A stretch of DNA of 64,000 bases. Source: Gautieria morchelliformis. Lineage: Eukaryota; Basidiomycota; Agaricomycetes; Gomphales; Gomphaceae. Position 1 is the first letter of the stretch. Each line of letters starts with the position of its first letter. Positions 15,165-64,000 of this stretch are shown one piece after another. Made by a program: the position numbers and the translations under genes. The notes under the pieces are model-generated. The model was not told where the DNA came from and did no database searches. It worked only from the letters and a program-made list of their open reading frames with translations. The stretch is from contig WHVA01000543.1 of the NCBI GenBank assembly GCA_015179125.1, forward strand, positions 1-64,000, given 5' to 3'.

Positions 15165-15346
15165 TAGAGGTCACCTCCCCGTAGAACAATGGACGAGGCT
15201 AAGTATTTCAAAGCCCGCTGTCTTTGAAATGCTCTTTTCGTTTATTGGTCGGTTGTTTCACGTGCCGCAATAGCGACTGTGTCGGTCTTTTAACAGTGAG
15301 TTAGGCATCTCTTCAGAGTGTCCAATATGTTGTATTAATTCTCATT

Positions 15347-17160: not shown

Positions 17161-17163
17161 ATG

Positions 17164-18520: not shown

Positions 18521-18694
18521 TACATTTCTTTACATAAACGATTTTGGTCTTGCTGTCGGCCGCCCTTCTGGGCAGTGTACCGCTGCACTCGAACGGATTA
18601 CCAGTTGCCTGCTGTGCCCACGTGGAAGACCTTGTCACCCATGTAGACTAAATACTGCTTCGGCTGTAAATTGTATGCTACTCTAGTGTATTAA

Positions 18695-18754
18695 GACAAG
18701 CGCAGACAACACGTACTTAGTGGTGGTCGGCCCACAAATAATAGGTGGAATCCG
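18695..18754 (+). repeat. Dispersed repeat, copy 2 (compact form)
   Basis: Shorter version of the repeat at 9,335-9,432, lacking two internal stretches. A separate short similarity (GTTTAGACAC ... TTTCTTTACATAAAC) links 18,499-18,540 with 18,926-18,966. Confidence 0.6.
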
Positions 18755-19338
18755 CACCAAAACGCAGTCACGTACATAATATACGTGGATAAAGATTGAC
18801 CAGGCGGGAAAGTCACGATGGTCTGTAGCGATGGAATGACGTCTGGAGATGGCTACCTAATTTGTCATCTGAATGTTGAGTTAGTTTGCTCTTTGTTCTA
18901 TTTGCAGGGTCGCCTCGTGGTTCTATGTTTAGACACTGAGGTAAATATACCTTTCTTTACATAAACCAGTATTGCCAGAATGTGTGAGGCTAGGTGTCCA
19001 GGAGGGTCATTCCTTCGAGGACAATTGCGAACTGGGCTCCAGCGACCGTTGCTGTTGCACTTCGCGCTCGCCGAAGGCATCCACAGGCACGGTAGCTTAG
19101 TCCGATTGATCTGGGGGTGCCCGGCACGTCGGCATCGGCCCTTTTTGTCTGCAAGCGCCGCTCATTTGCGGAGTTTCGCAGCTTGTCTCCCACCACCTCC
19201 CGTCTTCACCACCTCCGTCTACTTTTGGCAGCAGAGCCCGCCACCACACTCGCTCACCCCACAGCTCTCTACTAGATATTATCTTACTTGACGACATACA
19301 ATTCACACATCCCACATTCACACATTCCACATCACACG

Positions 19339-21609: not shown

Positions 21610-22856
21610 AGGGACCAGGACAAATTGCAGTACATATGACGGGCGACGGACCCCCCTCACTTTGCGTTTTTGCGACACGACGGACCCCTCCTCCTCCTTT
21701 CGTTTTTGTTCTCTCTCTTCCCACGTGCTCCGCTCCACCTAGATATTGAATATTTGATCGCCCGCACCCGAGCACAACACACGCCTTACGTCTTAGCGCC
21801 TTTATCGCGCACACACACCACACCCGACACCCATATACACCATACACCACACACACCGCGCTCGCCTTTTATTGCCCGTTACCCATTACCCAGTACCCAT
21901 CCATCCTCAGGCTTATACCCCCCGCATCGACATCGACTACTACCTACCCCATTCCCATCGCGCGTCACTTGTTATTCCTTTTTTTGTTTTGTCCGTCATT
22001 CAGCCTTCTCTTGTCGGAGGAAGGAAACGCGTCGTTGGAACCCATGCACGGCAAATCTTCCCTTTCTTAAGCCTCCCTTTTTCTTTTTTTTTTAGGAAAT
22101 ATATATATATATATAAGTATGACAATGGCACGGAGCGGAGGTGGGGTCGGTGATGCGAAAAATAATGAAATTTTGTTGCGATCCATGATGCCGGTCGTGG
22201 CCAGGCATTCTTTCGAATATAGTGAGGAACCTGCGAGTTGAAAGGTGCCGAGTCATCGCTACTTATATAACACGACAAGTGAGGAGGGCCACCGACGACG
22301 CGACGACGCCAGGACGGGGCGACACTGTACAAGCACGTGGTTTTGTATTTCCACCGAATAACTGGGGGGTCAGATGCATCGGAGTCAGTCAGCTGAGCTG
22401 GTTGTACGTCGTTTCCGGTGCTTCCCGCACTCCTTTGTTGCCACCGAGCCGTGAGGTACAAATAACGCGTCGCGCACACGCAAATGCACATGTACTGTAT
22501 TTTGCGGTTTGCCCCCCATGATATCCCCTTCGTAGCTAACTCTGACTCCCCACCCACAACACCCGGCACGTTGGTGGTTCTCTTCCTCTGTGGGTCTGCG
22601 TCGCGTCTCCCGGGCCACCGCCACGAGACTGAGTCACTTGACGACGATCCAACACGCCCACCGAGTCATGGTCCGTGATGCGTGATGCGTGATGCATGAT
22701 CGACTCATGCATTGATGCAGCTGGGCTGGGCTGTGGATCAATTCGTTTCGTATGAATGCAGCGGAATGCGCTTCTCGTGCGTTACAGTAAGATGCTGAAC
22801 AAGTCATCCGCCGCGGCCTGGGAGCTCGGAGGGTGGGGAGCGGAGGAGCGATGGGA
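21610..22856. other. 3' flank of chitin deacetylase, no gene
   Basis: Pyrimidine-rich and CA-rich sequence (21,790-21,860), an (AT)n run at 22,097-22,115 and no convincing frame. It is nearly identical to 54,283-55,483 in copy B. It probably contains the 3' UTR of the deacetylase. Confidence 0.5.
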
Positions 22857-23180
22857 AGCGGAGCCTCAAGTTGGGCCCGGGCTTATTGGGAAGGGAGGGG
22901 AGCGGGTTCGCGCTGTCGATTCCGGCACCAGGTCGGACGTCCGACCTGGCCTGGATGGCGCTGTGGGTTTATGAAGTTCTTCCACTAGCACCGCGTTTTA
23001 CGGGTTAGTATTTGTAGTCCGAATATGTGCAAATAGCTGAGTTACTGCGGGCGTTCGGGGGTATTCTGAGTTCAACAACGGCGGGTAAACTGACGCCTCT
23101 AACGCGTGCAGTTTGGATTAGTCTGCGGATGCACAAAGAAATATGATTTTGATTGTCACTCCAAATTATATATATATATT
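22857..23180 (+). repeat. Segment inverted between the two copies
   Basis: The reverse complement of this segment is at 55,484-55,838. Breakpoints are at GATGGGAAGCGG on the left and the (TA)n run on the right. It carries a perfect 22-bp palindrome (22,928-22,949, CCAGGTCGGAC and its complement). A diverged third copy lies at 32,988-33,105. Confidence 0.85.
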
Positions 23181-23414
23181 ATGGCATGAATTCATGAACT
23201 CCTCATCCTATGGGCCATACACCTATTCAGATCCAAGTTACAGCAAACCTATGCACACAAACATTTAACTCGTAACCCATTTACCTTAGTACACATAGAC
23301 ACAGCCCTTTTTATCATAGTCAGAATGTGCTCATGCTATTGAAAGCTCATGTACTAATTAGAGTACAAATGCCACCAATTCCCGCATACATACACACGCG
23401 CAGCGTCATCAAGT

Positions 23415-23653
23415 TGTTGTGAATCCGGTGATACTTGACCGATGCCCAATCCACTACGTGTCGTCTTGTTTCCATGTGTCAACCATCATATGTTGCTTAC
23501 TCCCTCCATGTCTCTTATCCCTTCATTCCGTTTCTTATCATCATGACACAACGGGCTCTGTAGTATAAGTAGCCTACGCTTGTACGACGACCTCTCAGCT
23601 CCTGCTGAAGTCGTCTAGCCAGGGTTCCCGTACTAGACCTCTGCTCCAATACA
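23415..23653. mobile_element. Candidate solo LTR (239 bp), copy A only
   Basis: Starts TGTTGTGAATCCGG and ends CTCCAATACA, flanked by AGT on both sides. Copy B lacks it and has an almost uninterrupted site (GTCATCATGTAATATAAAT). An AGTATAAGTAGCC TATA-like element lies inside, as in a promoter-bearing LTR. The flanking duplication is only 3-4 bp, which weakens the call. Confidence 0.55.
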
Positions 23654-23694
23654 AGTAATATAAATGCACTGCGTCATCTAAAAGAAAAATCCAA

Positions 23695-26600: not shown

Positions 26601-26905
26601 TCCACTATCTCTCCCTCAGTTCGGCTGAGCGTCAGAGTTCCAAGTATAAGTGCATCAAGAAGTTGGGTAGAAGCACTCGCGAACCTGCCTTAACTGCTCC
26701 GTACCCCTTCATGATCAACGAGCCATGGTGGTTTGAGATGAAGGAAGGTGAGCATGGAGAGTACGTACAGTCATGGTCTTCATTTGACAACCCTCCCAAT
26801 TTCGACGACTTCAAAGAGATCAACATCCTGCAGGTTCTGAAACAAGTTGGTGATGGAGCTGATGACGGAGAAGAAGATCATGAAAGTGGGCATGTGGAGG
26901 ATTAG
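23695..26905 (+). CDS. Unknown TE-associated protein, interrupted
   Basis: Not a family I can name, but typical of the uncharacterised proteins accompanying basidiomycete DNA transposons. Coding blocks on the plus strand: 23,695-24,034 (MHPQETIPLPAPVPPLEL..., acidic Ser-rich end), 25,455-25,680 (basic, KMKLKDLTKQEKELKGEL), 25,736-26,186 (FADPIPLPDPLEPGADPWL, then PNFTEDVNHQTNSAI), about 26,210-26,490 (NYGFNPTAVLHVDWMSDEDS) and about 26,575-26,905 (YPFMINEPWWFEMKEGEHGE, acidic tail). Introns are inferred. A 0.9-kb TIR element sits in the gap after the first block. Copy B lacks 24,107-26,201, so it has only the ends of this gene. It may be partner gene of the transposase at 27,990-31,759. Confidence 0.45.
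24236..25138. mobile_element. 903-bp TIR element, non-autonomous
   Basis: The left end reads TAAGATAGAGTCATCTTAAA and the right end is its imperfect reverse complement. Similarity continues for about 40 bp through a CTGGCACC...TTATGTAAGC motif on both sides. No transposase frame is present inside. The interior is AT-rich with a perfect 18-bp palindrome around CACGTG (24,527-24,544). It is consistent with a MITE-like DNA transposon. The target duplication cannot be set because copy B has no empty site. Confidence 0.7.
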
Positions 26906-27024
26906 AGGGACCAGGGACGTACGGAGAGGGATTATTCATATCGGGGAAACATAACTTATTCCTCAGCTGCATGTTGCGCGTCGCGCACAATAGAGATGAT
27001 ACAATGTATTCTTGTCCCCACCCC

Positions 27025-27945
27025 ATCCGTGAACATTCCGTCTCCTCTGCCCGATTTCTGCTGGGCGACGATCGTGTTGTGAGCGCAAGCAGGGACCAGA
27101 CAGTCAGGATATGGAGCATAGCATCGACGTACGCATGATTTAGAAACTTGCGTCCCTGCATGACCTCCTCTCGCAGACACTGCATCAAAGTTTTAAACTC
27201 CCATACAGATTGGATTCATTGCACCTTGTCAAGCTTAGATGGGAAATTGATTCTCACATGTTCTAATGATCATGTAAGTCGCTGCGAATATGGTCAATTG
27301 GATCAAGGTCTCAAGTTTCACAGACCGCATGGATATTAGACGTGGAGTCAGGCGCTACGAAGGCAGAAATGCGTGGACACGAAAACGTAGTTGAGGTGGC
27401 TGTCTTTGCGCCTGTGGTCTCCCTTCCCTCTATCCGCGACTTGGTCGCCCAGGCGAGTAACCATTGATCCTGTCTAAATCGTGTTTTAACACTTTGCGCT
27501 GTTACGGTCATTGCAGCCAGCCAACACATGTACTGATAAAATCAACGCCATAGGTGTTGCGTTCGTAGCGACGGGCTCCCGAGACAAAACTATTAAAATT
27601 TGGGATGCATTGATGGGGCAGTGCTTGTGGACGTTTGTGAGGGCATTTCTCTGATTGACTCTTTCTTCTTCTTCTCATTGCTAGCAGGTTGGCCATGATA
27701 ATTGGGTGCGGGCCCTGACTTTCCATCCGTGTGGAAAATACCTTCTCTCTGCCGCCGATGACCACACTGTCCGCATATGGGATCTCAAGACAGGACGGTG
27801 CGTGAAGAAGATTGAACCGCATGAGCAGTTTGTCGCATCGATCGTATGGGGAAGGCAGGTTGTCACGGGCGCAGACGGGCAGCAGGAGGCGGTGGAATGG
27901 CCGATCAACGTTATGGCCATGGCCAGTTCTGATAAAGTGAGTGCT
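27025..27945 (+). pseudogene. PAC1/LIS1 WD40 fragment, 5'-truncated
   Basis: PAC1/LIS1 regulates cytoplasmic dynein and nuclear migration. Here only about four WD40 repeats remain. Blocks in order are GDDRVVSASRDQTVRIW, an exon with CIKVLNSHTDWI and TCSNDH, an exon with GATKAEMRGHENVVEVAVFA, then FVATGSRDKTIKIWDAL, and [20 protein letters not shown] with [18 protein letters not shown]. Introns of 48-50 nt at 27,129-27,176 and 27,274-27,323 are clean. The third uses a GC donor (GCGAGT, from about 27,454) and the fourth starts at about 27,639. The N-terminal LisH domain, coiled coil and first repeats are absent, and the last repeat stops at ASSDK. With no promoter or N-terminus this is a captured or orphaned host gene fragment. 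It abuts the 3' end of the convergent transposase. Confidence 0.75.
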
Positions 27946-27989
27946 CGCTGCTGATCTCTTCCTATCGTGAATCACAGGGCTGCGGACCC

Positions 27990-30900
27990 CAGCAGTGATA
28001 GCAACTATCAATGAAGAATTGGACTCATCTATCCTCATCAATATTAGTGTGTCTCTAGTCTGCATGCAGGAACACAATACCTTGTCAAGGGTCACAGTGA
28101 ACCATTGTGGAGGGTCTGAACTATCGTATACTCCACGGGCCACATGACAATGGATGTCTCCAAATGGAATAACTGCAATCTTCGGATCAAATTTCACGTA
28201 AGTATTGAGCAAATGGAAGTTGACATCGATTTCTGGGCTGTGTGATGTGATGAACTCCTAGAGGATTATCCAGGGGAATTTTTACTTACAAGTCAGCCCA
28301 GGCATCCTGCTGAATAGGGACTGTATCTAGCGTTTCGAACCATGCAATCTCGGCAAAAATCATGGGGGCCCTTGTCGACTGGCTATGTTCAAACAGGCTT
28401 ACGATCTCTCCATACTTCCATTCCTCCATCACGTGGGCCTTCACAAGGGACAAGAATCGGGTAGTAGCGGCCGCATCCCTGGACAAGGCCGTGAAACGCT
28501 GTCCGGTCCTGATAACATACGTGTAATAGTTGGCTGCTGGTGACAAATAGCTAGCGTTCCGTGGGGCGGCATGATCCAGGGTGAGATAAATATGTGGTCC
28601 GTTATTGCCTGCTGTGACATTATTATAGTAAGCTGCAAGTGCCTGGTGTGAAGACTTAGGAAGAAAGTGCTTGTTCTTTATCAGAGGGCCATGAATCACT
28701 CCTGATGTATGTGTCGCTATGCGTGGGCACTAGTGTGAGATCAAATCCAAATATGAATTATGTACTCACAATCATCCAATGCATCCTGGTGTGCCGAGGC
28801 AATGGCCTCTATGGTCCCTCGTGGGTCGGACGATCCTCTGAGCAAGTGTTGAGTAATGAGTGACTCATCACCCATTGTGGGGCTTGTGGATATGAGATGC
28901 ATCTATAAAGATGACAGAGACGGCCAATGACTAGGTTCTTAAGCGCAACTCACGGTTTCCTGAAGTTGGACATCCCGACCCCATTCACGAACCATGCTGA
29001 CCTCCAATTGTCCACCACCCCAATTGTTTGACTTAAAACTCTTCAGGAGTTTATTAAGCCGTTCTCCCAGAAAACACCAGAACCCATAAACAGGGCCGTA
29101 GTCATATATCTGCGCAGGCAAGTGCACAACATAGTGATGGTTCGGCTTCATCTTCTTGATACCATAAACCTGCTCACTCCATTGTTTCAGTGTTAGCGTT
29201 TTTTGGATTCATGTCACATGCACGGATTTATACTCCAAAAGATACTCACTCATTAGCACTTCAGCCCGTCGAACCTCTGCATCCGTTAGTTCGTATTGTG
29301 TATAGATTTTTGTAGCAGTGGCAAGCTTGAGGAAGATTTGGTCTTCCCCCAGTAACATGCGCGGCGAGGGCTTCTTGGGAGGCTCAACGATTTTGCGTGA
29401 TTTCCTGGTGGCACTCTGACCTGGATGGTCGTCGACCTGGCTTTGATGAGTCATACTTCCAGTTTCGCCACCATCCCCTATTGGTTGAGTCGCCATTTGA
29501 GATTTGAACCGAGCCTGATATCTTGCACCGTGCTTCCTTTCCCATTCTTTCATCCGTTGCGTGAAGGAGGCCATAGCTACATCATATTCCTTCTGGGCTT
29601 TTGTGAGACACTCATCCCATACTAAGGGGAACTAGCAGATATTTAATGTAATTAGATCACCAATACCATTAATATTATTGTGTTTGCAACTTACAATGAT
29701 TGGTAAAAAAACAGTACTGAGCCCTTTGTATGTGTCGGCAGAAAGGCTTCCACCTGCCGGTTCTCCAACTTGCATAGCTGGTCGTCCCACAAAAGATGGC
29801 ATGTCAAACTGTGAGAGAGGCTCAGCAGTGTACAGCTATCAGAGATAAGGTTGAGAGACTTACACTGTCAAGATAAGAATGAATGATACCAAGCTCCCGC
29901 TTGGTCTTGCCTGTATTCCCTCAAAGGGTATTGCCGGCTATCCATAGCGCATACCAATGGTTTTTGATGATGCCTGAGTACAAGTGACTAGTGTTTAAGC
30001 TGTGCAGAACATAATACAGACGAGACGCACCGATAAGTAAATTATGCATTGGATCTAGGTGATAGGATTGAAATACGGCAGTTTTGCAAGTTCATACCAC
30101 CTCACGCCTTGTGCCTTTGCAAATGCCTTGTGAGCTGTGGGATCGCTAAGAGTGGCGTATTCATGGGCCAGATCAAGATGCTGTTGTAATTTGCGTTCTG
30201 GAAACCCTGTTCGCCAAACAATTGAGCTCAAAATGGCTGAGAACGCTGAGAACTACATGCCGTTCTTACCATTACACAAAGCCTCATCAGAGAAAATTCC
30301 TCTTGAGTGACAACACACCATGTACAGGGCAATATTGTATGGCCATGGTCTCCGAATCCACACATCTTGACAGCCGCAAGGTGATCACATACGACTCCGA
30401 TACAGATAAATCGGATGAGTCAACCTATTAGAGATAGCTCATTAACAAACACATCAGCTAAATATATGAGACACATACCATTTGGGTATAGCGGTGTCTT
30501 GATAATGATCCCTCTCGTGTACAACATGATGAGTTCTTCGACAATCCGCTTGAGATAGAATTGGAGTTCGTCGGCTGTGGGCTCTTTTGGGCCAGCTGTC
30601 ATAACAGGTATGAGCATGTTTTCCACATGGTACCTAGTCAAACATGTAAACATGGGATACAACGAAAGAAAAACACCATTTACTTGAGTTCTGGTGCCAG
30701 GTTCGCTATAGAAAATGAGACAACACCAGACGAGTGACTTGGCGATAGATCCCCACGTCTGGCCTGGAACCTGAAAAGGCACAACAGTGATATTAGACCG
30801 GTTATATTAGTCCAAATTGAGACGATGAGTAATATGAGGACATACCAATCTAAGCCACAAGCCCCTGCTAATCGCAGCGCGGAATCGTCTCGATCACCAA

Positions 30901-49061: not shown

Positions 49062-51793
49062 CAGAAGGTCCCTTTATGTTTCAAATAGAACCAGGCTCAA
49101 GATAAGCCAGAAGTTGAGAAAACAATGCACTTATCAGTGATTACAAACCTTTACAATAATTGATCGCATGACGTAACCATTTCCTTGTGAGGTGGTGACA
49201 TACTAATTCGACTGCAGTGGCTCGTACTCACCGATGATTAGTTGCCACTTTAAGACTTCTATAGAAACAGAAATAATCAACGCGCGTCGGCGGAGGGAAG
49301 GTTGTAAGTGTCTCTATCAGTCCAACGGAACCACGGCATTCGTGCAACAATCGGTCCTGAGCTTGTGGCGAAGTGTAGCAATGAACGCGAACCACATGTA
49401 CCGGGGCCGCTGCCTATGATGAGAGCATGACACTCGTGTAGATACGCAACACAATCAGGCGGCGGCTCGTTGGAGAGACGAAGCTATCTTGACGCTAAGA
49501 TATCGGGACCAGATAAAGCGCCTTAGGGTGCTATGCAGCTTGGAGTCTGACCAGGATCTCGCCTGTAGAACCATCTCTTGCAGCTTGCTACAGCGATATG
49601 TTCGTAGTGCCTCTGTGTCATAAAGCGTGACCCAGGTAGGGACTCGGTCAATCGGTGCATCTTACTCTTGCAGCGTTTTCCGTCAGGTGCCAGTTGAAGA
49701 TAGAGTAAAAAGAACGTACTTATCGAATGTCCATGTGATATTGACTTCCTTTATCCAAGTGTCGTTATGTAATGCAGTAACGTAAATAGTAACTTGCTCC
49801 TGACATAGCTTGCCAATATTGGTGCCGTATGGGAGTTATAAGGACTGCGCACTTGGTCATGCATGCCACGAAATCACCTCATTACCAGCACCGTCAACGA
49901 CAAACTTTGAGGGCTGCACTCATGGACGGGCGAAGCGAAGGACGAATACCGCAGGTCCTGCTGGTGCTATAAAGTCTTAGGGCTGCGTCCGTCATCATGC
50001 TCGGTGCCTGTGAGTCGTACGGCCGGTCTAGTGCTGGCAGAGGCTGGCTCGTGAAGTTCTGGAATAGAGCTGAGGCTGCGTGCTGGAAAAGGCTGACTCG
50101 TGAAGTCCTGGAGCATGCAGAGCACGGCACGTGCTGGAAAGGACTGGCTGAGTCGTGACGTTCTGGAAAAGACGAAAGACGGAGGTGGTGCGTGTCTTTT
50201 CGACCTTGGCTCTCCAGTATCGAGAAATCGACCGACGCAGGAGTGGATCGCCTCGCTGTTCGACCTCGTAATTGAGAAGCAGAGCTGCCTGTACAGGCGA
50301 TCGTCACGATGAATACCGTATATCCATCCGATAGAGTGATATGAACCAGGATCAATGATAGGTGCGCCCGAGAACTGCAGTGCATTGATTGTCATGCAGA
50401 CGCTGTAGGAAACAGTCGAAACACCGTCATTGGCACACCTTGCTGCCAAGACGAGGGAACATTATAAGGGTTGGCATTGCAGTACTTAGGCTGGATCTAC
50501 GGGCCATGGTGAGCTCTTCAGAGATATCTTCCTATAAATATGGGCCCGCACCAAGCTGCGGAGAGCCAATGAAGCGAGAGCTTCCTATCTATCGCGAAAT
50601 TCCAGGCATCATATCTGGTCCATCTGCTGTGTATCATGGATCTCCAGCGATTCTTGATAGGCAGCTCATGGACCTCAGTGCTCGCGATGGAGCAATCTGA
50701 CGAGGGAATTCGTGAGAGGTGCGCCCCAGATATACCGTGCCCTTTCAGATATGAAGGCTTGCGCATGTCTCCCAGATATTGCAGGGGTTGGATACTGGCG
50801 ATGCATCAGATCAGTCAGTAACTCGGAGCCATGCACATGGAAACCTCACTAGGACCAGTAAAAAGATGCCGAACACTAGGGATGAGCGTTCCATGTGCAC
50901 GACACTATGTTGTTGTTATCATCACGATTGACAGGTTTTAGATGGAAATCCTTACCGAACCGTGAGTCATCTAATGTCGTTGCTTTGGGGCCTTCTCATT
51001 TACGCCTTCTGTGCCATGTGTTGAGGAAGAACACCCAGAATTTGAGAAACTTGTAGCACAGTACATAAGTACTGGGCTACAAGCTTGTAATATGCTGGGG
51101 AATGCTTACTTCACCCTCCATGCTCAATGTGTGCGCGGTCGGGTAATGAGAGGACGCCTCGTATGGACTGGGGCCCTTCTAGAGACGATTCCCAGATGGG
51201 GCTGGACCTGCGTTCTATAGCTTCCTTGCGCAATTCTCATAGCTTATCAATGTCAGTTTCAAAACCGGAATGAGAGAACTTGGTGAAGACTTACACAAGG
51301 AGCTTGGGCTAGGCGGCAAGGCGCCTGGCACCAATGTGCGTCGCTCGACACCCTTTTTCTCTGTTCGCGATGATCTGCTGTCCCATCGTGGCTAAGGATC
51401 GGTGCTGGTAAGGAGACGGTAGCTTGTTTATTTATTTATTTTCCATTTGGCTTGCTGGGTCGCTTCCCGTGTCTGCGGCTGTAGTTCCTAATTAGCTCCA
51501 GTCTGAGGGTTTTCTGGTAGTTTCCTTGCCCACCTGTTGGTCTAACCTTTAAGTTAAGTTCTTAAGCTGCTCGCCACTCACCCACTCACGTCGTGGCCTT
51601 GCTGCAGCTCTAGAGGTCACCTCCCCCGTAGAACAATGGACGAGGCTATTTCAAAGCCCGCTGTCTTTGAAATGGTCTTTTCGTTTATTGGTCGGCTGTA
51701 TCGCGTACCGCAATACTTAGCGACTGTGTCGGTCTTTTAACAGTTAGTTAGGCATCTCTTCACAGTGTCCAATATGTTGTATTCACTCTCATT

Positions 51794-51886
51794 ATGGCCC
51801 CTCCAGCGACTCCACCCGTCCCAGTAGGTCAACCTCAACGTATGTACATCGATGGCGTGCGCATATTCCCCCAGCTATCTTCATGA
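51794..51886 (+). CDS. Copy-B counterpart of the short conserved ORF
   Basis: 30 codons, same start, stop and length as 15,347-15,439. The YIDGVRIFPQ block is unchanged and several base differences are synonymous, while the middle and last residues differ. It may be a first exon. Confidence 0.25.
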   Translation: MAPPATPPVPVGQPQRMYIDGVRIFPQLSS

Positions 51887-52229
51887 CCATGTTGACCTTT
51901 AGTGGATAGCAAGGCACCTCAAGTTCTGTCCGTTGGCGGTGGTCAGTGGCACCAGGTGGTGATGGGATGCAAGGCGACGTTTAGACACGGTTAGTCGTGA
52001 TGGTAGGCCCCAGCCTTCCTTGTCCTGTTATACAACTTCATACGGTGAGGTCCATGACAATATGATATCCCTTGGCAGGTCGTGCGCGATGGATTGGCGT
52101 ACACGGGATGACGACCGATGCGGACTACTGCGTCTCCTGGTGGCATGTATAGGATCTACCCACACCACCGAGCGACGCACTCTTATAGTCCCATACGTCA
52201 ATCTCGCTCTCGCATGAGTTGAACTTGCA

Positions 52230-54282
52230 ATGCAAGGTCACCTTTTTTATTATTGCGTCATCCTCAGCGGCATGCCCAGCCAGGCAACACCCACCTTCTC
52301 CACCACCTTCGCGCCCGGCGCGAGGCCCCCCGTCGCCGGCGCGCCCCCGCTCCCAACCAGTGCGTATACCTGCCCTGCCCATGTGGCAGCCGCGACGCGA
52401 CCGGCCCGAGCTGACGTTTTTATTATCTGCGCTAGCGCCCCTCGATCGCTCCAAGTACCCGCCTCCGACCCAGGTCGCGCCCACCGACACGCCGCTGGTC
52501 ACACAGTGGCTGAAGGAGCTCGACGGCGTCATGATACCCGACATTCCCGTCACGCAGGACCACGCTCAGTGCGCCTTGAATCCCCAGGTCTGTCCATGCA
52601 TTCTCGTCTTAACATGATGAACGTGTTCTCATGCGCATGTCGCAGGCTGCGGCCGACCCCACGCGCTGCTGGTGGACATGCGGCGGCTGCACGCGCGACG
52701 TCGACGTTGTCAGCTGCCCCACCAAGATGGACTGGGGCGTCTCCTTCGACGACGGCCCCAGTCCCTACACGCCTCTTGTCAGTAAAAATCAACTCTTGAC
52801 GCCTCGTTTCGCGTTTCTCATTTCACACTTTCTAAACTATTCCTTATTCCTCAGGTGCTCGACTACCTCAAGCAGCAGAACCTGGACGCCACCTTCTTCG
52901 TCGTCGGGACGAGCGCGTACTGGCACCCCGACATCCTCCAGGCAGAGTACATGGCCGGCCACCAGATCTCCGTCCACACGTGGTTCCACCAGTACCTCAC
53001 CACCCTCTCCAACATCGAGATCGTCGCCAAACTCGGCTACACCCGCGAGATCATCAAGGTGCGCGTGCCATAAGAACTTTTCGAATTAAGCGCTTACCTT
53101 TGCCTTTTTTTTTTCCTCTTTTTTTTTCCAGGATATCATCGGTGTGACGCCCAATACGTTCCGCGCGCCCTATGGTGATATGGACGACCGCGTGCGGGCG
53201 ATCGCGTTGGGGATGGGGATGGAGCCCATCATCTGGACGCGCAACCGTGAGTGCTGCTGGCCTTTCCTTATGTCCCGACCATCCATCCTAAACCCATCGT
53301 TGTCGTTGTTCCTTCTCCAGCGCAAACCGGCGACCAGTTCGACACGAACGACTGGAAGATCCCCGGGGGGGAGGCGACGGGGCAATCCTCGTATGCCCAG
53401 TTCCAGACTATTCTGGCAAATGCTTCGTGAGTGTACATGCACCATTATACGCCCGTCATTAGCTTACTGTTTCGGCCGTCATTAGGATGCTCAATACTGG
53501 ATTCATTGTCTTGGAGCACGATCTGTACCAGCAGACTGTGGACCTCGCTACGGGGTACACGATCCCTTCTGCGCTGCAGCACAACCCGCCTTTCAACGTG
53601 CGTCTCTCATTCTTACTCATCCTATCTTCTTTAGTTCGTGAACTATCTCGGGTTCTTTTTCTAATTTATTATTTCTACAAATGATGTTTGAGGCATTTGG
53701 CTTTATGCATTGGGTTGCACTGCAGACACCTATCTCAGCTACCTTCGAGCGCAAAGCTCGCTCATCTGACTATCCCCATCCCCATCCCCACCTCCTTCTC
53801 TTTCTCCTTTTCCCTTCCTGCCACCTGCCACCACATACATATATACTCACTATCTTTATCTTATCCACCCTACCAGCTCAAATCCATCAACCAATGTCTC
53901 GGGAAGCAGCCGCAGGACGTGTACCAAGAGACGGCGGCGAACAAGACGCTCATGACGCTCACGAGCAACTGGACGGGCAACTACCTCCACGGGCTCAGCT
54001 CCGAGCTGAGCTCGGGCAACTCGAGCTCGGGCGGCGGGTCGGCGAACGGGAGCGGGGGAATGGCGCGAGCGGGAGCGGGAGCGGGGGGAGTGGCAGTGGG
54101 AGCGGGAGCGGGGGCAAAGCGGTGAGAGTGATGTGTTTCGGTGAAGGAGAGGAGAGTGCTGTGCTGATGATGTTTTTGCTTTGCTGTTGCGACAGAGCGG
54201 GGCGGGCCGCGTCGAGTTCGAGCTCCGGGCTGGCGTCGCGGCGCTAGGCGCGCTCGCCGTCCTCAGCACCCTCCTCGCATGA
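52230..54282 (+). pseudogene. Chitin deacetylase copy B, 5'-truncated and frameshifted
   Basis: All exons after the first are present with the same splice sites: 52436-52587, 52646-52777, 52855-53058, 53132-53246, 53321-53426, 53486-53597, 53877-54121 and 54196-54282. The first ~265 bp of exon 1, with the signal peptide, are replaced by the end of the 15.8-kb flank. An in-frame ATG at 52,230 could still start a protein, but without a secretion signal. Exon 8 has one G fewer in a G run (near 54,057), which throws the Ser/Gly tail and GPI signal out of frame. The NodB motifs themselves are intact and one charge change occurs (Glu to Lys at the codon near 53,029). Probably non-functional as a wall enzyme. 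Confidence 0.85.
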
Positions 54283-55483
54283 AGGGACCAGGACAAATTG
54301 CAGTACATATGACGGGCGACGGACCCCCCTCACTTTGCGTTTTTGCGACACGACGGACCCCTCCTCCTCCTTTCGTTTTTGTTCTCTCTTCCCACGTGCT
54401 CCGCTCCACCTAGATATTGAATATTTGATCGCCCGCACCCGAGCACAACACACGCCTTACGTCTTAGCGCCTTTATCGCGCACACACACCACACCCGACA
54501 CCCATATACACCATACACCACACACACCGCGCTCGCCTTTTATTGCCCGTTACCCATTACCCAGTACCCATCCATCCTCAGGCTTATACCCCCCGCATCG
54601 ACATCGACTACTACCTACCCCATTCCCATCGCGCGTCACTTGTTATTCCTTTTTTTGTTTTGTCCGTCATTCAGCCTTCTCTTGTCGGAGGAAGGAAACG
54701 CGTCGTTGGAACCCATGCACGGCAAATCTTCCCTTTCTTAAGCCTCCCTTTTTCTTTTTTTTTAGGAAATATATATATATATATAAGTATGACAATGGCA
54801 CGGAGCGGAGGTGGGGTCGGTGATGCGAAAAATAATGAAATTTTGTTGCGATCCATGATGCCGGTCGTGGCCAGGCATTCTTTCGAATATAGTGAGGAAC
54901 CTGCGAGTTGAAAGGTGCCGAGTCATCGCTACTTATTATAACACGACAAGTGAGGAGGGCCACCGACGACGCGACGACGCCAGGACGGGGCGACACTGTA
55001 CAAGCACGTGGTTTTGTATTTCCACCGAATAACTGGGGGGTCAGATGCATCGGAGTCAGTCAGCTGAGCTGGTTGTACGTCGTTTCCGGTGCTTCCCGCA
55101 CTCCTTTGTTGCCACCGAGCCGTGAGGTACAAATAACGCGTCGCGCACACGCATATGCACATGTACTGTATTTTGCGGTTTGCCCCCCATGATATCCCCT
55201 TCGTAGCTAACTCTGACTCCCCACCCACAACACCCGGCACGTTGGTTTGTTGCCCTCTCTGCCTCTGCGCGAGACTGAGTCGACGACGATCCAACCCGCC
55301 CACCATGGTCCGCGATGCGTGATGCATGATCGACTCATGCATTGATGCAGCTGGGCTGGGCTGTGTGTGGATTAATTCGTATGAATGCAGCGGAATGCGC
55401 TTCTCGTCCGTTACAGTAAGATGCTGAACAAGTCATCCGCCGCGGCCTGGGAGCTCGGAGGATGGGGAGCGGAGGAGCGATGG

Positions 55484-55838
55484 ATATATATAATTTGGAG
55501 TGACAATCAAAATCATATTTCTTTGTGCATCCGCAGACTAATCCAAACTGCACGCGTTAGAGGCGTCAGTTTACCCGCCGTTGTTGAACTCAGAATACCC
55601 CCGAACGCCCGCAGTAACTCAGCTATTTGCACATATTCGGACTACAAATACTAACCCGTAAAACGCGGTGAGCTAGTGGAAGAACTTCATAAACCCCACA
55701 GCGCCATCCAGGCCAGGTCGGACGTACGACCTGGTGCCGGAATCGACAGCGCGAACCCGCTCCCCTCCGGTAGAATCTTTATAGGTCTAATAATAAACAA
55801 ACCTTCCCAATAAGCCCGGGCCCAACTTGAGGCTCCGC
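55484..55838 (-). repeat. Inverted segment next to the virus-like insert
   Basis: Reverse complement of 22,857-23,180. It begins at a (TA)n run and ends at GGCTCCGC, where the foreign insert begins. It contains a ~25-bp insertion (GGTAGAATCTTTATAGGTC) not in copy A. Confidence 0.85.
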
Positions 55839-55882
55839 GAAAGGTGTCACGAGAAGCGAATGCGCTTCCAGAACACACACAC

Positions 55883-57290
55883 ATGATGCGCTGCGCTTTA
55901 TGCAAACGGGAGTACACAGAGACCCTGGTTCAACACAGAGCAGCGGACGAAGCGCCTTCCGTGGTCTATGAGTGCCCGCTATGCCCCCTGGACGTCTCAA
56001 GGCTGCACAGGAAGTACTCTCCGTCCAGCAGCTCGCATGGCGTGGTTCAGCGCGAAGTCTCCTCAACGCATCAAACCGTCTCCTTCAAGTACATGTCCTC
56101 GATGCAGATGATGATCGCGTCCTTGAGCCAGCACACGTACAGAGGCATGCGGGTTTCGACAGGCGTCTCTTCGAGGTTCACGGCTAACGTCAGGTGCAGG
56201 GACAGAAACATCAGGCGAGGGGTTTGCCTTGGGGATGCCGTATACGTGCACACAAAGAAGAGCACGTTGGCACCAGGCTGCGTCCTTGTCTCCGTCGATG
56301 TTTACGAGGCCAACGGCGGACGTGCTTTCTCAGACGAGATGTGCGTGTACAATGTTCGCCTATGCGGAGAAGACCTGTGCGTGTACGAGAAGTCTAACGG
56401 AAGCGTTTTCGTGGAGTTTGTTGTCTGCTCTGACCAGGAGATTCTGGGCTCTGTGCGAAAGGCGTATACGCTAGGGGCATGCCCGTCTCTTCTCAGTGCT
56501 GTTGTCAGAAGCACGTTTGTGTCAGCTCTGTTCGATGGGAGCTCTCGTGCATATGACGCCACGGAGAGCATCACGACCGAGGAGTCTTCGCTAACGGATG
56601 TCCTCGTGTATACGCACAAGATAGACGGGGAACGGATGTGGATGCTAAGGGCAGGCTCGGTCTGGTTGTTCTGCAGACGTTTCATGGGAAGTGACGTCGT
56701 GTATTGGATGACCTGCGATCGTGTGTCTGCCCTGGAGGAGAGCACGTTCCTTGTGCTGGACGTCGAGTTCGTCGTTGGGAGACGCCCCGTTCTGATAGAT
56801 GTCCTGTCTACACCAAACGGAGTCCTGAGGGCAGACCACACACAGGAGGAGGCCATGAAAGCGTTTTGCGAGGTCTCCTTCGGGAGGTGTCCGGTCTTCG
56901 TTAGGGAGTACTTCGCTACCCTGGACCAGGCGAAGAAGAGCCCGTCCGAGTACCCTTGCGATGGCTTCGTGGCGATAGACGTGATCAGCCGTATGACGTA
57001 CAAGCTGAAGGACACGCGTTCTGCAGAGCTCCGATACCTGAGCGGAGGGTTACACACGGAAGACGGAACACGGGTGGGCTCCTTGGCAGACAACCTACGG
57101 TACGGACAAGCTCATGTACAACGAGGACGCAAGCAAGGACACCTGCTTAAAGGCATGCGGCTACATCACCAGTGTCATGGGCATATCCGTGAAGGACTTG
57201 GGAGGCCTCGCTCATGCCGTTTCCTCGCAAAGAGTCATGACGTACATGGAGGATGTCCTCGTGATCAAGGGCTTGGAGTTTCGTGGGTGA
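55883..57290 (+). CDS. Nucleotidyltransferase of the mRNA-capping/ligase superfamily, virus-like, one frameshift
   Basis: Intronless. Start chosen at the first ATG (55,883); a second follows immediately. The N-terminus has CALC...CPLC (CxxC-x23-CxxC), a probable zinc ribbon. The middle region (residues about 60-215) is beta-rich and might be an RNA triphosphatase-like part, unproven. The guanylyltransferase/ligase motifs are in the canonical order: KIDGER (motif I; K246 would carry the covalent nucleotide), LDVEF (motif III; D293, E295), CDGF (motif IV; D360) and YKLKD (motif V; K374, K376). The frame that continues naturally changes near 57,100, and the new frame runs to a TGA at 57,288-57,290. 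A conserved-looking tail lies in that second frame. So the copy is broken by one frameshift unless this is a sequencing error. Family assignment by motifs is firm. Capping enzyme over DNA/RNA ligase is inference. Confidence 0.75.
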
Positions 57291-57349
57291 TCGCCGCTTC
57301 CTTTTAAAAACGAACAGGAAGGGAAACCACGATACTGGAGACGCGTGGC

Positions 57350-57835
57350 CTAAAGCGAGAGCAGAGACATGTCTGATTGGATGTGGAGGGCATCCTTATT
57401 CCCAGCGGACCCGTATTTGGAGACCCGTCCGCCACACACGGTCTTTGATGCCTTGACCACTGCGACCTGATCGACGACGAGCTCTACCTCCCAGTCTGTT
57501 AGGCATGCAGGATCGCAAGTCTTCTTCCCAGAGCCCTCTACGGCGACAGAGGACTTCAAGTCTATCCTGATCTGAAGAGCACACAAAAAGCTCTTTATGT
57601 CAGGGTTCCTTTCGAAGGCGCCCTCCAGGTCGAAGTCCGTGGTCTTGGTGCCGACGGTGATCTTCACAGGAAACTTGCCGCCAGTCGGGTAGCACTTGGC
57701 GAGGACCCAGCTTAGCTCGACGGGATCATCGAACGACGAGGTCTTTGCCGTTACGGTGTCCGTGTCTGCAACGGAGGATCTCATGTCGTCGATCAGGTTG
57801 TTCAGAACCTTGGCAGGCAGCGCAACAGGAATCTT
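57350..57835 (-). pseudogene. Unknown virus-like protein, 3' part (left palindrome arm)
   Basis: I do not recognise the protein. About 160 residues on the minus strand, ending at a TAA near 57,350 and convergent with the capping gene. It contains LNNLIDDMRSSVADTDTV, DFDLEGAFERNPDIKSFLC and VELVVDQVAVVKASKTV, a balanced, globular-looking sequence with no membrane segment. The frame runs through the palindrome centre into antisense, so the true N-terminus is missing. Confidence 0.55.
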
Positions 57836-57846
57836 CCGATCGTCGA

Positions 57847-58332
57847 AAGATTCCTGTTGCGCTGCCTGCCAAGGTTCTGAACAACCTGATCGACGACATG
57901 AGATCCTCCGTTGCAGACACGGACACCGTAACGGCAAAGACCTCGTCGTTCGATGATCCCGTCGAGCTAAGCTGGGTCCTCGCCAAGTGCTACCCGACTG
58001 GCGGCAAGTTTCCTGTGAAGATCACCGTCGGCACCAAGACCACGGACTTCGACCTGGAGGGCGCCTTCGAAAGGAACCCTGACATAAAGAGCTTTTTGTG
58101 TGCTCTTCAGATCAGGATAGACTTGAAGTCCTCTGTCGCCGTAGAGGGCTCTGGGAAGAAGACTTGCGATCCTGCATGCCTAACAGACTGGGAGGTAGAG
58201 CTCGTCGTCGATCAGGTCGCAGTGGTCAAGACATCAAAGACCGTGTGTGGCGGACGGGTCTCCAAATACGGGTCCGCTGGGAATAAGGATGCCCTCCACA
58301 TCCAATCAGACATGTCTCTGCTCTCGCTTTAG
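57847..58332 (+). pseudogene. Unknown virus-like protein, 3' part (right palindrome arm)
   Basis: Mirror copy of the left-arm fragment on the plus strand, differing by one residue (Ala to Thr in VVK.SK). The stop is at 58,330-58,332. It was created by the palindrome and is not a second independent gene. Confidence 0.55.
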
Positions 58333-58673
58333 GCCACGCGTCTCCAGTATCGTGGTTTCCCTTCCTGTTCGTTTTTAAAAGGAAGCGGCGATCACCCATT
58401 ATGGCATGAATTCATGAACTCCTCATCCTATGGGCCATACACCTATTCAGATCCAAGTTACAGCAAACCTATGCACACAAACATTTAACTCGTAACCCAT
58501 TTACCTTAGTACACATAGACACAGCCCTTTTTATCATAGTCAGAATGTGCTCATGATATTGAAAGCTCATGTACTAATTAGAGTACAAATGCCACCAATT
58601 CCCCACATACATACACACGCGCAGCGTCATCATGTAATATAAATGCACTGCGTCATCGAAAAGAAAAATCCAA

Positions 58674-59781
58674 ATGCATCCACAAGAGACCATTCCTCTA
58701 CCTGCACCTGTACCACCGCTAGAGCTCATGTGGGAGAGCAACCCCTTCCCACCTGACCCATACGGCAAGCTCCCGCCGACCCTGAAAAGTGCCGCACTGC
58801 GCCGCAACTGGTGCAGGCTAACGGCCGATGTGCGTGAGGCATTCTGGAAGGAGCATCTTGCTGGAGAGGAATCTGAGACTGAGCCTGAGAGTGATTCTAG
58901 CCTAACCAGCCCTTCTAAGCTCTTTCAGACGAAAATTGCCCGTGCCGCCCCGGTGGAGGAAGACACCATAAGACTGAAGCCTGTCCCTTCTAAGCACACT
59001 AGCGTATCTGGTAAGCGACACATGATCCAATGTCAATAAATTATTACGACGCACTTATCATCTCCTCTCTTAGTCAGCAGCACTTGACTCTGACATTCGG
59101 AGCTGAAATGAATGTCTCACATATAGACCTGCAGAAGATGGGATGGCGACTTGCCGCAGTTCCCCAATTTGTAGCCAATTACGGCTTCAATCCAACAGCG
59201 GTCCTGCATGTCGACTGGATGTCGGATGAGGATAGTGAGCCAGAAGGAATAAACAAGCATGAGACTGCGCACGAGAGGCAAGAAGCCATGACGGCATGGC
59301 GGACAAGCTGCCTGCATCGTCTGGGAATCACTGGTGATATCAAGCTTCATGACGATCTCGCTCTGCTGGAGGTGGTAAGACCAGAATGGCACAATGATTA
59401 TGTAAGTGCGCACCGTGACTAAATCATCATGGAATAACACCATTTGAAATAAAGGCATCCGGCCTCTTACACGAGCTCAGCCGTATCCACTATCTCTCCC
59501 TCAGTTCGGCTGAGTGTCAGAGTTCCAAGTATAAGTGCATCAAGAAGGAAGCACTCGCGAACCTGCCTTAACTGCTCCGTACCCCTTCATGATCAATGAG
59601 CCATGGTGGTTTGAGATGAAGGAAGGTGAGCACGGAGAGTACGTACAGTCATGGTCTTCATTCGACAACCCTCCCAATTTCGACGACTTCGAAGATCAAC
59701 ATCCTGCAGGTTCTGAAACAAGTTGGTGATGGAGCTGATGACGGAGAAGAAGATCATGAGAGTGGGCATGGGGAGGATTAG
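58674..59781 (+). pseudogene. Copy B of the unknown TE-associated gene, deleted and frameshifted
   Basis: Retains the first block (MHPQETIPLPAPVPPLEL) and the last two blocks of 23,695-26,905, but the ~2.1 kb between them is gone (junction at about 59,083). A 7-bp deletion near 59,547 and a 2-bp deletion near 59,693 shift the final exon. Clearly non-functional. Confidence 0.75.
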
Positions 59782-59919
59782 AGGGACCAGAGACGTACAG
59801 AGAGGGATTATTCATATTGGGGAAACATAACTTATTCCTCAGCTGCATGTTGCACGTCGCGCACAATAGAGATGATACAATGTATTCTTGTCCCCACCCC
59901 ATCTGTGAACATTCCATCT

Positions 59920-62090
59920 CCTCTGCCCGATTTCTGCCATGACGATTGTGGCGTGAGCGCAAGCAGGGACCAGACAGTCAGGATATGGAGCATAGCATTG
60001 ACGTACGCATGATTTAGAAACTTGCGTCCCCCATGACCTCCTCTCGCAGACACTGCATCAAAGTTTTAAACTCCCATACAGATTGGATTCGTTGCACCTT
60101 GTTGAGCTTAGATGGGAAATTGAATCTCACATGTTCTAATGATCATGTAAGTTGCATATGGTCAATCAGATCAAGGTCTCAAGTTTCACAGACCGCATGG
60201 ATATTAGATGTGGAGTCAGGCGCTACAAAGGCAGAAATGCGTGGACACGAAAACATAGTTGAGGTGGCTGTCTTTGCGCCTGTGGTCTCCCTTCCCTCTA
60301 TCCGCGACTTGGTCGCCCGGGCGAGTAACCATTGATCCTGTCTAAATCGTGTTTTAATGCTTCGCGCTGTTACGGTCATTGCAGCCAGCCAACCCACGTA
60401 CTGATAAAATTGACGCCATAGGTGTTGCGTTCGTAGCGACGGGCTCCCGAGACAAAACTATTAAAATTTGGGATGCATTGATGGGGCAGTGCTTGTGGAC
60501 GTTTGTGAGGGCATTTCTCTGATTGACTCTTTCTTCTTCTTCTCATTGCTAGCAGGTTGGCCACGATAATTGGGTGCGGGCCCTGACTTTCCATCCGTGT
60601 GGAAAATACCTTCTCTCTGCCGCCGATGGCCACACTGTCCACATATGGGATCTCGAGACAGGATGGTGTGTGAAGAAGATTGAAGTGCATGAGCAGTTTG
60701 TCGCATCGATCGTATGGGGAAGGCAGGTTGTTGTCAAGATTGGATTTTAGGCGTTAATATTGTGTATTAGTGAACACAGCGAATGCCCGAACAACTTGTG
60801 CGAATAAGTATGCCGTTCAGCGAATAGGTGAACCGATGAATGTTCATGAAACAAGAGGGTTGCCCGAACAGGGCTCACCCTACCTACAGTCGTAGCGAAA
60901 TAGCTCGCAGCACTTGACGACATAACGTACAAGATATCACGGGAGGGCCGTCTAAGTTTCGACGGTCCCTTCGCTGGCGAAGGTGCTCCTTCAGAGCCCT
61001 TCGCCAACAGCACAGAAAATAGTTTGAAGGCTAAGGTAACGAAGATGAAGTATGAGAACTCACCAGTGATGCCTAAGTCCTTGGCTGGTTGAAGATAGAA
61101 ATCTTCAAGGAGAGGCTCAAGACGATGATCACAGCGAGGTCAAGTTTGCACAAGATGGACGACGTATGATAATTGAACTGGGGAATATACATGCGAATGT
61201 AAACTACTTATATCGAATGCTCGTAAGGTATCAGCGAATAGGAAAGAGGCCGTCATGAGTCAGGGTTGGATAGGGGTGCGCAGTCATGATACAACACAGA
61301 TGAAATAAACATACAATAGAATGTAAGAAGAGGGAAAACATGAAACGACGGAGAGTAGAGGTGGCGAAGGCATTTATGGACAAAACCATGTCTTGGGACT
61401 CGTGTACATGCTACCCTGCACGGACTCTTGGTCTACTGGGTTGATTCTGCACGGCCTATGGAGGGGATGTCCTGCGAACATACTCTGACCATACGAACGC
61501 CCAATGGGGTTGGATTTAAGAAGACGATGGGGTTAATGATGGACCATCATGCCGGGTGAATGGTATTGATCGTTTTTGATGGTGTGCCTGCTGGTGAATG
61601 ATGCGAGCAGCGAATAGCCGTTCGGCGAAATGCAAGGAAGGGCGAATCGAGGTGACATAGGGGAGGAGAGGCCGAGGAGGAGGGTGAAGCGAGCGAACAC
61701 TGAGGAGGAGTGGCGAAAGGGAAAATGGGGATACCAAGGTGCAGGAAATGCACAGGTCATGACAACCCAACTATTCGGACACCATCGGAAGAGGGTCAAG
61801 CAGAGGAGGTGGTAGGCCCAGTGATGACTGCCGAGTCAGTCTCAGGACGTCGATAGTGCGTTTGACGGCGCGGCTATGGTAGTTGGCGTGAACAGCGAGA
61901 GTTAGTTGTCGAACATAACAATGGTGATAGGAACGAACACGAAGGTGGGGTGAAAAAATAGGAAAACTGAGCTTCTAAGTATGGGAGATAAACACGTCAT
62001 GACAGTTGTCACGGGCGCAGACGGGCAGCAGGAGGCGGTGGAACAGCCGATCAATGTTATGGCCATGGCCAGTTCTGATAAAGTGAGTGC
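59920..62090 (+). pseudogene. Copy B of the PAC1/LIS1 fragment, split by a solo LTR
   Basis: Same WD40 blocks as 27,025-27,945 with more decay: the ASRDQTVRIW block is preceded by a disrupted GDD segment, and [12 protein letters not shown] has become GHTVHIWDLETG. The LTR at 60,732-62,004 interrupts it between WGRQVV and TGADGQQ. The end lies at about 62,083. Confidence 0.75.
60732..62004 (+). mobile_element. Solo LTR of a gypsy element (1,273 bp)
   Basis: TGTCAAGATTGG...CGTCATGACA, flanked by GTTGT on both sides (60,727-60,731 and 62,005-62,009). Copy A supplies the empty site GGCAGGTTGTCACGGG at about 27,865. The first ~680 bp match the gypsy LTR at 49,061-48,390 in reverse complement. The remaining ~600 bp are different. 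Confidence 0.92.
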
Positions 62091-62109
62091 TCGCTGCTGA
62101 TCTCTTCCT

Positions 62110-64000
62110 ATCGCGAATCACAGGGCCGCGGACCCCAGCAGTGATAGCGACTATCAATGAAGAATTGGACTCATCTATCCTCATCAATATTAGTGTGTCT
62201 CTAGTCTGCATGCAGGAACACAATACCTTGTCAAGGGTCACAGTGAACCATTGTGGACGGTCTGAACTATCATATACTCCATGGGCCACATGACAATGGA
62301 TGTCTCCAAATGGAATAACTGCAATCTTCGGATCAAATTTCGTGTAAGTATTGGGCAAATGGAACTTGACATCGATTTCTGGGCTGTGTGATGTGATGAA
62401 CTCCTAGAGGATTATCCAGGGGAATTTGTACTTACAAGTCAGCCCAGGCATCCTGCTGAATAGGGACTGTATCTAGCGTTTCGAACCATGCAATCTTGGC
62501 AAAAATCGTGGGGGCCCTTGCCGACTGGCTATGTTCAAACAGGCTTACAATCTCTCCATACTTCCATTCCTCCATCATGTGGGCCTTCACAAGGGACAAG
62601 AATCGGGTAGTAGCGGCTGCGTCCCTGGACAAGGCCGTGAAATGCCGTCCGGTCCTGATAACATACGTGTAATAGTTGGCTGCTGGTGACAAATAGCTAG
62701 CATTCCGTGGGGCGGCATGATCCAGGGCGAGATAAATATGTGGTCCGTTATTGCCTGCTGCGACATTATTATAGTAAGCTGCAAGTGCCTGGTGTGAAGA
62801 CTTAGGAAGAAAGTGCTTGTTCTTTATCAGAGGCCACGAATCACTCCCGATGTATGTGTCACTATGCGTGGGCACTAGTGTGAGATCAAATCCAAATATG
62901 AATTATGTACTCACAATCATCCAATGCATCCTGGTGTGCCGAGGCAACGGTCCCTCGTGGGTCGGACGATCCTCCGAGCAAGTGTTGAGTAATGAGTGAC
63001 TCGTCACTCATTGTGGGGCTTGTGGATATGAGATGCATCTATAAAGATGACAGAGACGGCCAATGACTAGGTTCTTAAGCGCAACTCACGGTTTCCTGCA
63101 GTTGGACATTCCGACCCCATTCACGAACCATGCTGACCTCCAGTTGTCCACCACCCCAAATGTTTGACTTAAAACTCTTCAGGAGTTTATTAAGCCGTTC
63201 TCCCAGAAAACACCAGAACCCATAAACAGGGCCGTAGTCATATATCTGCGCAGGCAAGTGCACAACATAGTGATGGTTCGGCTTCATCTTCTTGATACCA
63301 TAAACCTGCTCAGTCCATTGTTTCAGTGTTAGCGTTTTTTGGATTCATGTCGCACGCACGGATTTATACTCCAAAAGATACTCGCTCATTAGCACTTCAA
63401 CCCGTCAAACCTCTGCATCTGTTAGTTCGTATTGTGTATAGATTTTTGTAGCAGTGGCAAGCTTGAGGAATATTTGGTCTTCCCCCGGTAACATGCGCGG
63501 CGAGGGCTTCTTGGGAGGCTCAACAATTTTGTGTGATTTCCTGGTGGCACTCTGACCTGGATGGTCGTCAAACTGGCTTTGATGAGTCATACTTCCAGTT
63601 TCGCCACCATCCCATATTGGTTGAGTCGCCATTTGAGATTCGAACCGAGCCCGATATCTTGCACCGTGCTTCCTTTCCCATTCTTTCATCCGTTGCATGA
63701 AGGAGGCCATAGCTACATCATATTCCTTCTGGGCTTTTGTGAGACACTCATCCCATACTAAGGGGATCTAGCAGATATTTAATGTAATTAGACCACCAAT
63801 ACCATTAATATTATTGTGTTTGCAACTTACAATGATTGGTAAAAAAACAGTACTGAGCCCTTTGTATGTGTCGGCAGAAAGGCTTCCACCTGCCGGTTCG
63901 CCAACTTGCATAGCTGGTTGTCCCAAAAAAGATGGCATGTCAAACTGTGAGAGAGGCTCAGCAGTGTACAGCTATCAGAGATAAGGTTGAGAGACTTACA
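62110..64000 (-). pseudogene. Copy B of the Tnp2-like transposase, C-terminal part; runs off window
   Basis: Corresponds to about 27,990-29,870 of copy A. Blocks visible: DPKIAVIPFGDIHCHVAHGV, HFLPKSSHQALAAYYNNV, KPNHHYVVHLPAQIYDYGPV and WERKHGARYRARF. Several residue changes occur. The N-terminal half would lie beyond position 64,000. Whether it is intact cannot be judged. Confidence 0.6.

Follow-up and report, generated by a model that had tools for sequence, protein, structure and literature searches.

Probable traces of an undescribed dsDNA virus lineage, likely integrated more than once, in the genome of the basidiomycete Gautieria morchelliformis

The genome of Gautieria morchelliformis very probably records the repeated endogenisation of an undescribed lineage of double-stranded DNA (dsDNA) viruses, of which the insert described here would be one scrambled fragment. 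The insert lies in a stretch of 64,000 nucleotides that was analysed at its full length (the window), part of the 71,723-base contig C608 in a genome of 122 Mb and 1113 contigs. Very few DNA viruses have, to our knowledge, been described from mushroom-forming fungi, and this is why the Gautieria relics matter: repeated traces in a mushroom-forming fungus, together with matching full-length genes, offer concrete probes for finding a living virus. The host is a gomphoid, truffle-like basidiomycete of the Agaricomycetes.

Results

Self-comparison of the window and inspection of the junction letters, together with the similarity searches described below, outlined the following features.

22854..23178: insert-free copy A of the site (window self-comparison and junction letters)
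55484..55838: piece of host repeat that has the opposite orientation in copy A (window self-comparison and junction letters)
55839..58397: entire insert, probably of viral origin, absent from the paralogous copy A (window self-comparison and junction letters)
55883..57085, plus strand: 5' part of a putative capping-enzyme gene, broken off ahead of motif VI and the methyltransferase (similarity to the relative P0004; alignment of four relatives)
55889..55984, plus strand: TFIIS-type zinc ribbon with RxADEA hairpin (PF01096; RPA12; residues common to four relatives)
56618..56635, plus strand: nucleotidyltransferase motif I, KIDGER (K.DGER invariant in the four-relative alignment)
56756..57010, plus strand: nucleotidyltransferase motifs DVE, CDG and YKLK (D.E, DG and K.K invariant in the same alignment)
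57086..57101, no strand: junction between the capping part and the helicase tail, two probably viral genes joined out of frame (similarity endpoints)
57102..57290, plus strand: 3' end of a gene for an SF3-type helicase, comprising 62 codons and the stop (95% identity to the copy on contig C948; stop TGA)
57284..57839, plus strand: left arm of a palindrome (arm comparison)
57350..57853, minus strand: 3' part of gene I, left-arm copy, 167 codons, putative protein (87% identity to C948)
57829..58332, plus strand: 3' part of gene I, right-arm copy (98% identity to the left-arm copy)
57843..58398, minus strand: right arm of the palindrome, reaching the host junction (arm comparison and junction letters)

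Much of the window is a large segmental duplication (12620-29864 and 49064-64000), the source of the insert-free paralogous site; in the self-comparison its two parts, at 12.6-29.9 kb and 49-64 kb, align in pieces that are 91-99% identical. The original prediction that 55839..58397 is missing from copy A agreed with both the self-comparison and the junction letters, but it had overlooked an inverted 355-bp host piece (55484-55838) adjoining the insert. In copy A the left flank, one host piece and the right flank follow each other without interruption, while in copy B the same host piece is reversed and 55839-58397 is inserted after it. At least seven further copies of the repeat (on contigs C229, C471, C130, C892, C293, C568 and C455) share the copy-A order, with the two host parts abutting head to head within a few bases when their coordinates were inspected, so copy A represents the older order and the insertion the newer event. 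The left flank of the duplication is 96.3% identical over 3276 bases, and the insertion is most likely younger than the segmental duplication. No target-site duplication was seen in the junction letters at the insert ends. The host flanks of the insert (55484-55672 and 58399-59085) belong to a dispersed repeat with at least 44 and at least 64 genomic matches, respectively, which normally lie head to head. Elsewhere in the window, open frames at 52786-53485 gave the impression, from their letters, of a polysaccharide deacetylase in pieces.

The left part of the insert lies in an open frame of 486 codons (within 55839-57300), far beyond chance length, since the maximum in 500 dinucleotide shuffles was 283. 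As had been reported for this DNA, the frame holds KIDGER, DVE, CDGF and YKLK in that order, the last three at 56756-56773 (as LDVEFV), 56957-56968 and 56999-57010. Across all six reading frames of the 64-kb window, the pattern K.DG.R-D.E-DG-K.K was found a single time; its elements correspond, in order, to motifs I (KxDG), III (DxE), IV (DG) and V (KxK) of mRNA guanylyltransferases. Motif VI and the OB domain are missing from the window copy, which stops at 57085 before motif VI; by reading of the sequences, motif VI appears to be present in P0004, P0005, P0006 and the copies on contigs C342 and C637. Lacking motif VI and the methyltransferase, the window copy is not a complete enzyme and should have no capping activity.

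A query of a protein database with the window protein returned a Gautieria model and P0004, a full-length relative that is 47% identical to the window frame over residues 1-397 (window 55898-57085). A profile built from P0004 and the window protein then retrieved P0005 and P0006, also full length and 28-29% identical, whose source tags (lgn and jgi) we take to denote environmental assemblies. The contigs that encode P0004, P0005 and P0006 measure 3.8, 4.4 and 5.8 kb. These proteins and this genome held the only capping homologues among the best 7999 candidates by shared words that were scored, out of 5.8 billion sequences. When the window protein was aligned with P0004, P0005 and P0006, the ribbon hairpin QxRxADEA proved common to the four proteins, and so did the transferase residues K.DGER, D.E, DG and K.K. 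In the three full-length relatives the transferase is followed by a methyltransferase-like part with a VDLGSGDG-type SAM site, so that a single chain unites the ribbon, the transferase and the methyltransferase-like part. The CxxC...CxxC cluster noted previously corresponds to the ribbon: it matched PF01096 with 20.4 bits, slightly below the Pfam cut-off of 21, and PDB chain 7aoc_I (RPA12) with an E value of 0.014.

Curated families were largely silent. The Pfam search gave the window protein no ligase or cellular capping family match, NCBIfam held nothing for either window protein, and no curated capping profile reached its cut-off for the window protein, P0004 or P0006. The best values for P0004, all under cut-off, were those of LEF-4 (0.012; 14.9 bits against a cut-off of 20.2), TFIIS (0.027) and mRNA_cap_C (0.046), and P0006 matched Methyltransf_12 at 0.0029, also under cut-off. 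For the capping relatives, PHROGs yielded weak matches at most. Against the PDB, P0004 found no meaningful chain, and 0 chains were matched when the profile was restricted to the transferase region; the four-protein profile touched 7d8u ('GTP--RNA guanylyltransferase') over the methyltransferase-like part with an E value of 0.8. Inspection of alignment A3 by eye showed no conserved triphosphatase motifs. The capping-enzyme assignment is thus a putative one that draws on the conserved order of the motifs. A public gene model of this species, JB92DRAFT_3269484 (774 residues), covers the insert and joins pieces across the palindrome; it should not be trusted as a gene.

Downstream of the capping part the insert changes origin. 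It had been taken for an intact pair of genes, one for a single capping protein and the other convergent with it, but it is a rearranged chimera with a palindrome. The supposed single protein spans a junction of two genes: the capping part runs to 57085, and the sequence from 57102 onward belongs to the frame of a helicase. A frameshift inside one gene was considered as the cause of the frame change and rejected, as the tail belongs to another gene. Fuller copies of this helicase, on contigs C948 and C198, carry a Walker A box; the helicase did not match D5_N in Pfam, and a profile search with it returned Gautieria proteins only.

The palindrome measures ~1.1 kb and its arms differ at 2 of 556 nucleotides, although the repeat finder output gave 100%. 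What had been described as a convergent gene is one of its arms; the corresponding 3' part of gene I stands in both. The 59-bp spacing reported between the two genes does exist, but it separates the stop of the helicase frame (57288-57290) from that of gene I (57350). No family reached its cut-off for gene I in Pfam, NCBIfam or PHROGs. Gene I and another frame, ORF G, were tried as paralogues, and hhalign found no similarity between them; ORF G had no match in the PDB.

Eleven contigs, that of the window included, hold relatives of the capping enzyme, the helicase, the polymerase, gene I or ORF G: C608, C948, C198, C270, C342, C152, C349, C47, C637, C160 (in two places) and C149. The weakest were those at the second place on C160 (E 5.6e-4), on C149 (1.1e-8) and on C47 (1.2e-13), the last being a 33% identical helicase piece with a weak match between neighbouring frames (B with B47). 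The C47 locus was counted as distant kin, left out of the fold-back count below, and may represent a similar but more distantly related virus; long open frames with no Pfam match lie beside its helicase piece (C47:138001-148000, L025, at 6267-8973). A PolB-like match on C524 (30% identity, two stops) is probably an exon of a host polymerase and was not counted among these contigs. The block on C198 (~137-154 kb) combines the helicase, a polymerase piece and six open frames for which no family exceeded its cut-off, and in its interior LTR-like repeats surround long open frames. On C152 the end of the capping methyltransferase part is followed, on the same strand, by the front of a polymerase. 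Identity of the capping copies to P0004 falls in tiers, with 57% on C342, 41% on C152 and 32-35% on C637; the distant copy on C637 (121001-123600, L057) has the transferase end and the methyltransferase part in two frames. Three public NCBI models (P0003, P0007 and P0008) list such probable viral relics as hypothetical host proteins, and P0003 is spliced across the palindrome of the insert.

Hallmark genes were sought to place the lineage. A family-B DNA polymerase of the PF00136 kind, a Nucleocytoviricota-type marker, is present: the piece on C198 has the family-B motifs NSLYG and GDTDS and matched PF00136 at 8.8e-18 (64.7 bits), and the C152 polymerase reached 24.2 bits (cut-off 23). As to a D5-like SF3 primase-helicase, the fuller helicase copies matched phage primase-helicases down to 2.2e-10 (phrog_1156), and DUF5906 with 23.1 bits, below its cut-off of 27.6. 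The A32-type packaging ATPase PF04665 (Pox_A32) gave 0 matches in the integrated fragments, with 4 of 14 control genomes positive. The capsid family PF04451 (Capsid_NCLDV, double jelly-roll) and VLTF3 (PF04947) gave 0 matches in the genome, and likewise in 0 of the 14 controls. Scans of viral contigs with P0001, P0004, P0005, P0006, the helicase, alignment A3 and the polymerase piece confirmed no relative.

These hallmarks bear on what kind of element donated the DNA. The original prediction had left the choice between a virus and a linear plasmid; polymerase, SF3-type helicase and purifying selection (below) favour an integrated piece of a DNA virus, while the plasmid half is weakened. We consider it unlikely that the donor was a cytoplasmic linear plasmid, of the type of the yeast virus-like elements, whose own capping enzyme and polymerase were captured by a chromosome. 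The capping enzyme of such elements is indeed self-encoded and associates with the RNA polymerase of the element (PMC6211774), and no virion gene was found here, the capsid and VLTF3 controls being silent too. However, the C198 polymerase scored only 10.6 bits against PF03175 (cut-off 25.8), the protein-primed PolB that marks pGKL-type elements, and PMC6211774 gives pGKL a superfamily II helicase and a replication thought to be adenovirus-like, whereas the helicase here is SF3-like.

A resident self-replicating transposon of the Polinton/Maverick kind, rather than an infecting virus, would explain why one genome has many copies at scattered places. Polinton polymerases are protein-primed, and the preference for PF00136 over PF03175 speaks against one. 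Moreover, the copies are fragments with differing breakpoints, the window site has no target duplication, and the subset of viral frames that was searched contained no integrase or transposase. We therefore judge this origin very unlikely.

A viral donor also agrees with how the copies have diverged. Between the window and C948, gene I gave a dS of 0.375 and a dN of 0.064 (dN/dS 0.17), and between C948 and C198 the helicase gave 0.381 and 0.041 (dN/dS 0.11); the silent excess was significant by Fisher's test on rounded counts (p = 1.7e-10 and 1.2e-11, respectively). In both usable comparisons, the two on which the selection result rests once the helicase tail of window versus C948 (4 silent and 3 other changes) is excluded, the copies appear to have diverged under purifying selection. 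Divergence that is mainly silent suggests that they diverged as working genes before separate integrations, and the best interpretation of the loci is that a replicating lineage integrated at them separately.

Fold-backs similar to that of the window recur at the other loci. Six loci contain a piece that matches another viral piece of the genome at 80% identity or more, and five of them (window, C948, C198, C349 and C270) have fold-backs of ~250 bases per arm or more. Their arms differ at 2 of 556 positions in the window, 1 of 758 on C948 and 3 of 986 on C198, and the palindromes on C349 and C270 are self-complementary at 98.0% and 86.5%, gaps included. As arm divergence varies among loci, the fold-backs seem to have formed at different times. 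The sixth locus (C342:55.6 kb, a 69-residue polymerase piece at 88%) had no fold-back in the 6 kb examined, and none of that size was found in the other C342 stretches, on C152 or on C637. The fold-back spacers measure 3, 808 or 1470 bases or are near none, and the centres differ. One fixed viral terminus would give a single centre; the fold-backs may instead stem from snap-back priming or from the repair of hairpins while the viral DNA was being replicated or captured.

Long-read libraries and whole-genome amplification are both known to yield artefactual fold-back reads, and palindrome and mosaic could in principle be sequencing or assembly errors over a simpler viral insert. The genomes of PMC7550596 were, as stated there, sequenced with Illumina and/or PacBio. 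Nevertheless, the arms have diverged, and in the 219 kb compared, which include the viral loci, host DNA yielded a single inverted pair of at least 200 bases, 89.8% identical and LTR-like; an artefact is extremely improbable. That the insert is an ordinary host gene for a fungal capping enzyme or DNA ligase, cellular proteins that have the same motif order, has a practically negligible chance given the silent ligase and cellular capping families, the narrow set of homologues among the candidates scored and the fusion of three parts in one chain. The sequence searches turned up none of the findings that had been named beforehand as contrary to a viral or plasmid origin, namely a host ligase, a transposon protein or an ordinary spliced host gene.

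Discussion

Our preferred reading, repeated integration of a dsDNA virus, can be put as a sequence of events. A replicating virus would have brought its DNA into the nucleus on several occasions; broken pieces of it that had folded back on themselves would then have been captured during break repair, and the same repair may have flipped the 355 bp of host repeat. The locus brings an insert-free paralogous site, a flipped host piece and a fold-back together, and in this way shows how viral DNA can scar a genome.

The acidic hairpin of TFIIS enters the secondary channel of the polymerase. In the intact enzyme, the N-terminal TFIIS-type ribbon might dock on an RNA polymerase in cis, and the docked enzyme could carry out guanylyl transfer, and methyl transfer in the full-length relatives, at the end of the nascent transcript. 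The ribbon-capping fusion provides a testable idea of how a viral capping activity is recruited to the polymerase. A broader proposal joins these elements: the fragments would be the first traces of a separate dsDNA virus lineage of basidiomycetes that entered the Gautieria germline repeatedly, with a capping enzyme whose transcript-cleavage ribbon would extend into the RNA polymerase and couple the rescue of stalled polymerases to capping, and with DNA that habitually folds back and so leaves palindromes at integration. We advance it tentatively and give it slightly less than even credence. Among the observations themselves, the surprising ones are the ribbon-capping fusion, which is the most novel, and the frequency of the fold-backs.

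Multifunctional mRNA capping enzymes are known from viruses, as in poxvirus D1 and the asfarvirus NP868R type. The Gautieria-type proteins resemble these in their guanylyltransferase motifs and, in the full-length relatives, in the methyltransferase-like part that follows in the chain; to baculovirus LEF-4, a capping subunit of the Naldaviricetes, they are likened by the guanylyltransferase motifs and by the faint profile match, below cut-off, given above. Unlike either, all four members have a TFIIS-type ribbon at the N-terminus, triphosphatase motifs are not conserved by eye, and no curated family reaches its cut-off. The ribbon itself, CxxC...QxRxADE...CPxC with matches to PF01096, PF11792 and RPA12, is like the C-terminal ribbons of TFIIS, RPA12 and LEF-5, but it is fused to a putative capping enzyme instead of forming a separate factor or subunit.

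In the titles and abstract openings among the matches listed in our literature search, whose scope leaves out most subscription journals and bioRxiv, neither insertions of dsDNA viruses in basidiomycetes nor a fusion of a TFIIS ribbon with a capping enzyme was described. According to PMC10640383, no dsDNA virus of fungi was known as of 2023; the evidence cited there concerns basal fungi, plus virions with inferred Ascomycota hosts, and the main text does not contain the words Dikarya, Gautieria or Basidiomyc-. PMC9894930 presents two virion genomes with Ascomycota as putative hosts. The closest parallel is the asfarvirus-like region of Rhizophagus irregularis, also a case of endogenous dsDNA virus genes in a mycorrhizal fungus, whose five markers include PolB and a capping enzyme (PMC10640383). 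That region is a single 1.5-Mb relative of the Asfarviridae in a basal fungus, whereas Gautieria, a basidiomycete, holds scattered, folded-back fragments of unplaced affinity. The yeast elements pGKL1/2 likewise encode their own capping enzyme, which associates with a non-host RNA polymerase, but they combine it with a superfamily II helicase and a replication thought to be adenovirus-like (PMC6211774), while the Gautieria fragments combine it with a PF00136 polymerase and an SF3-type helicase.
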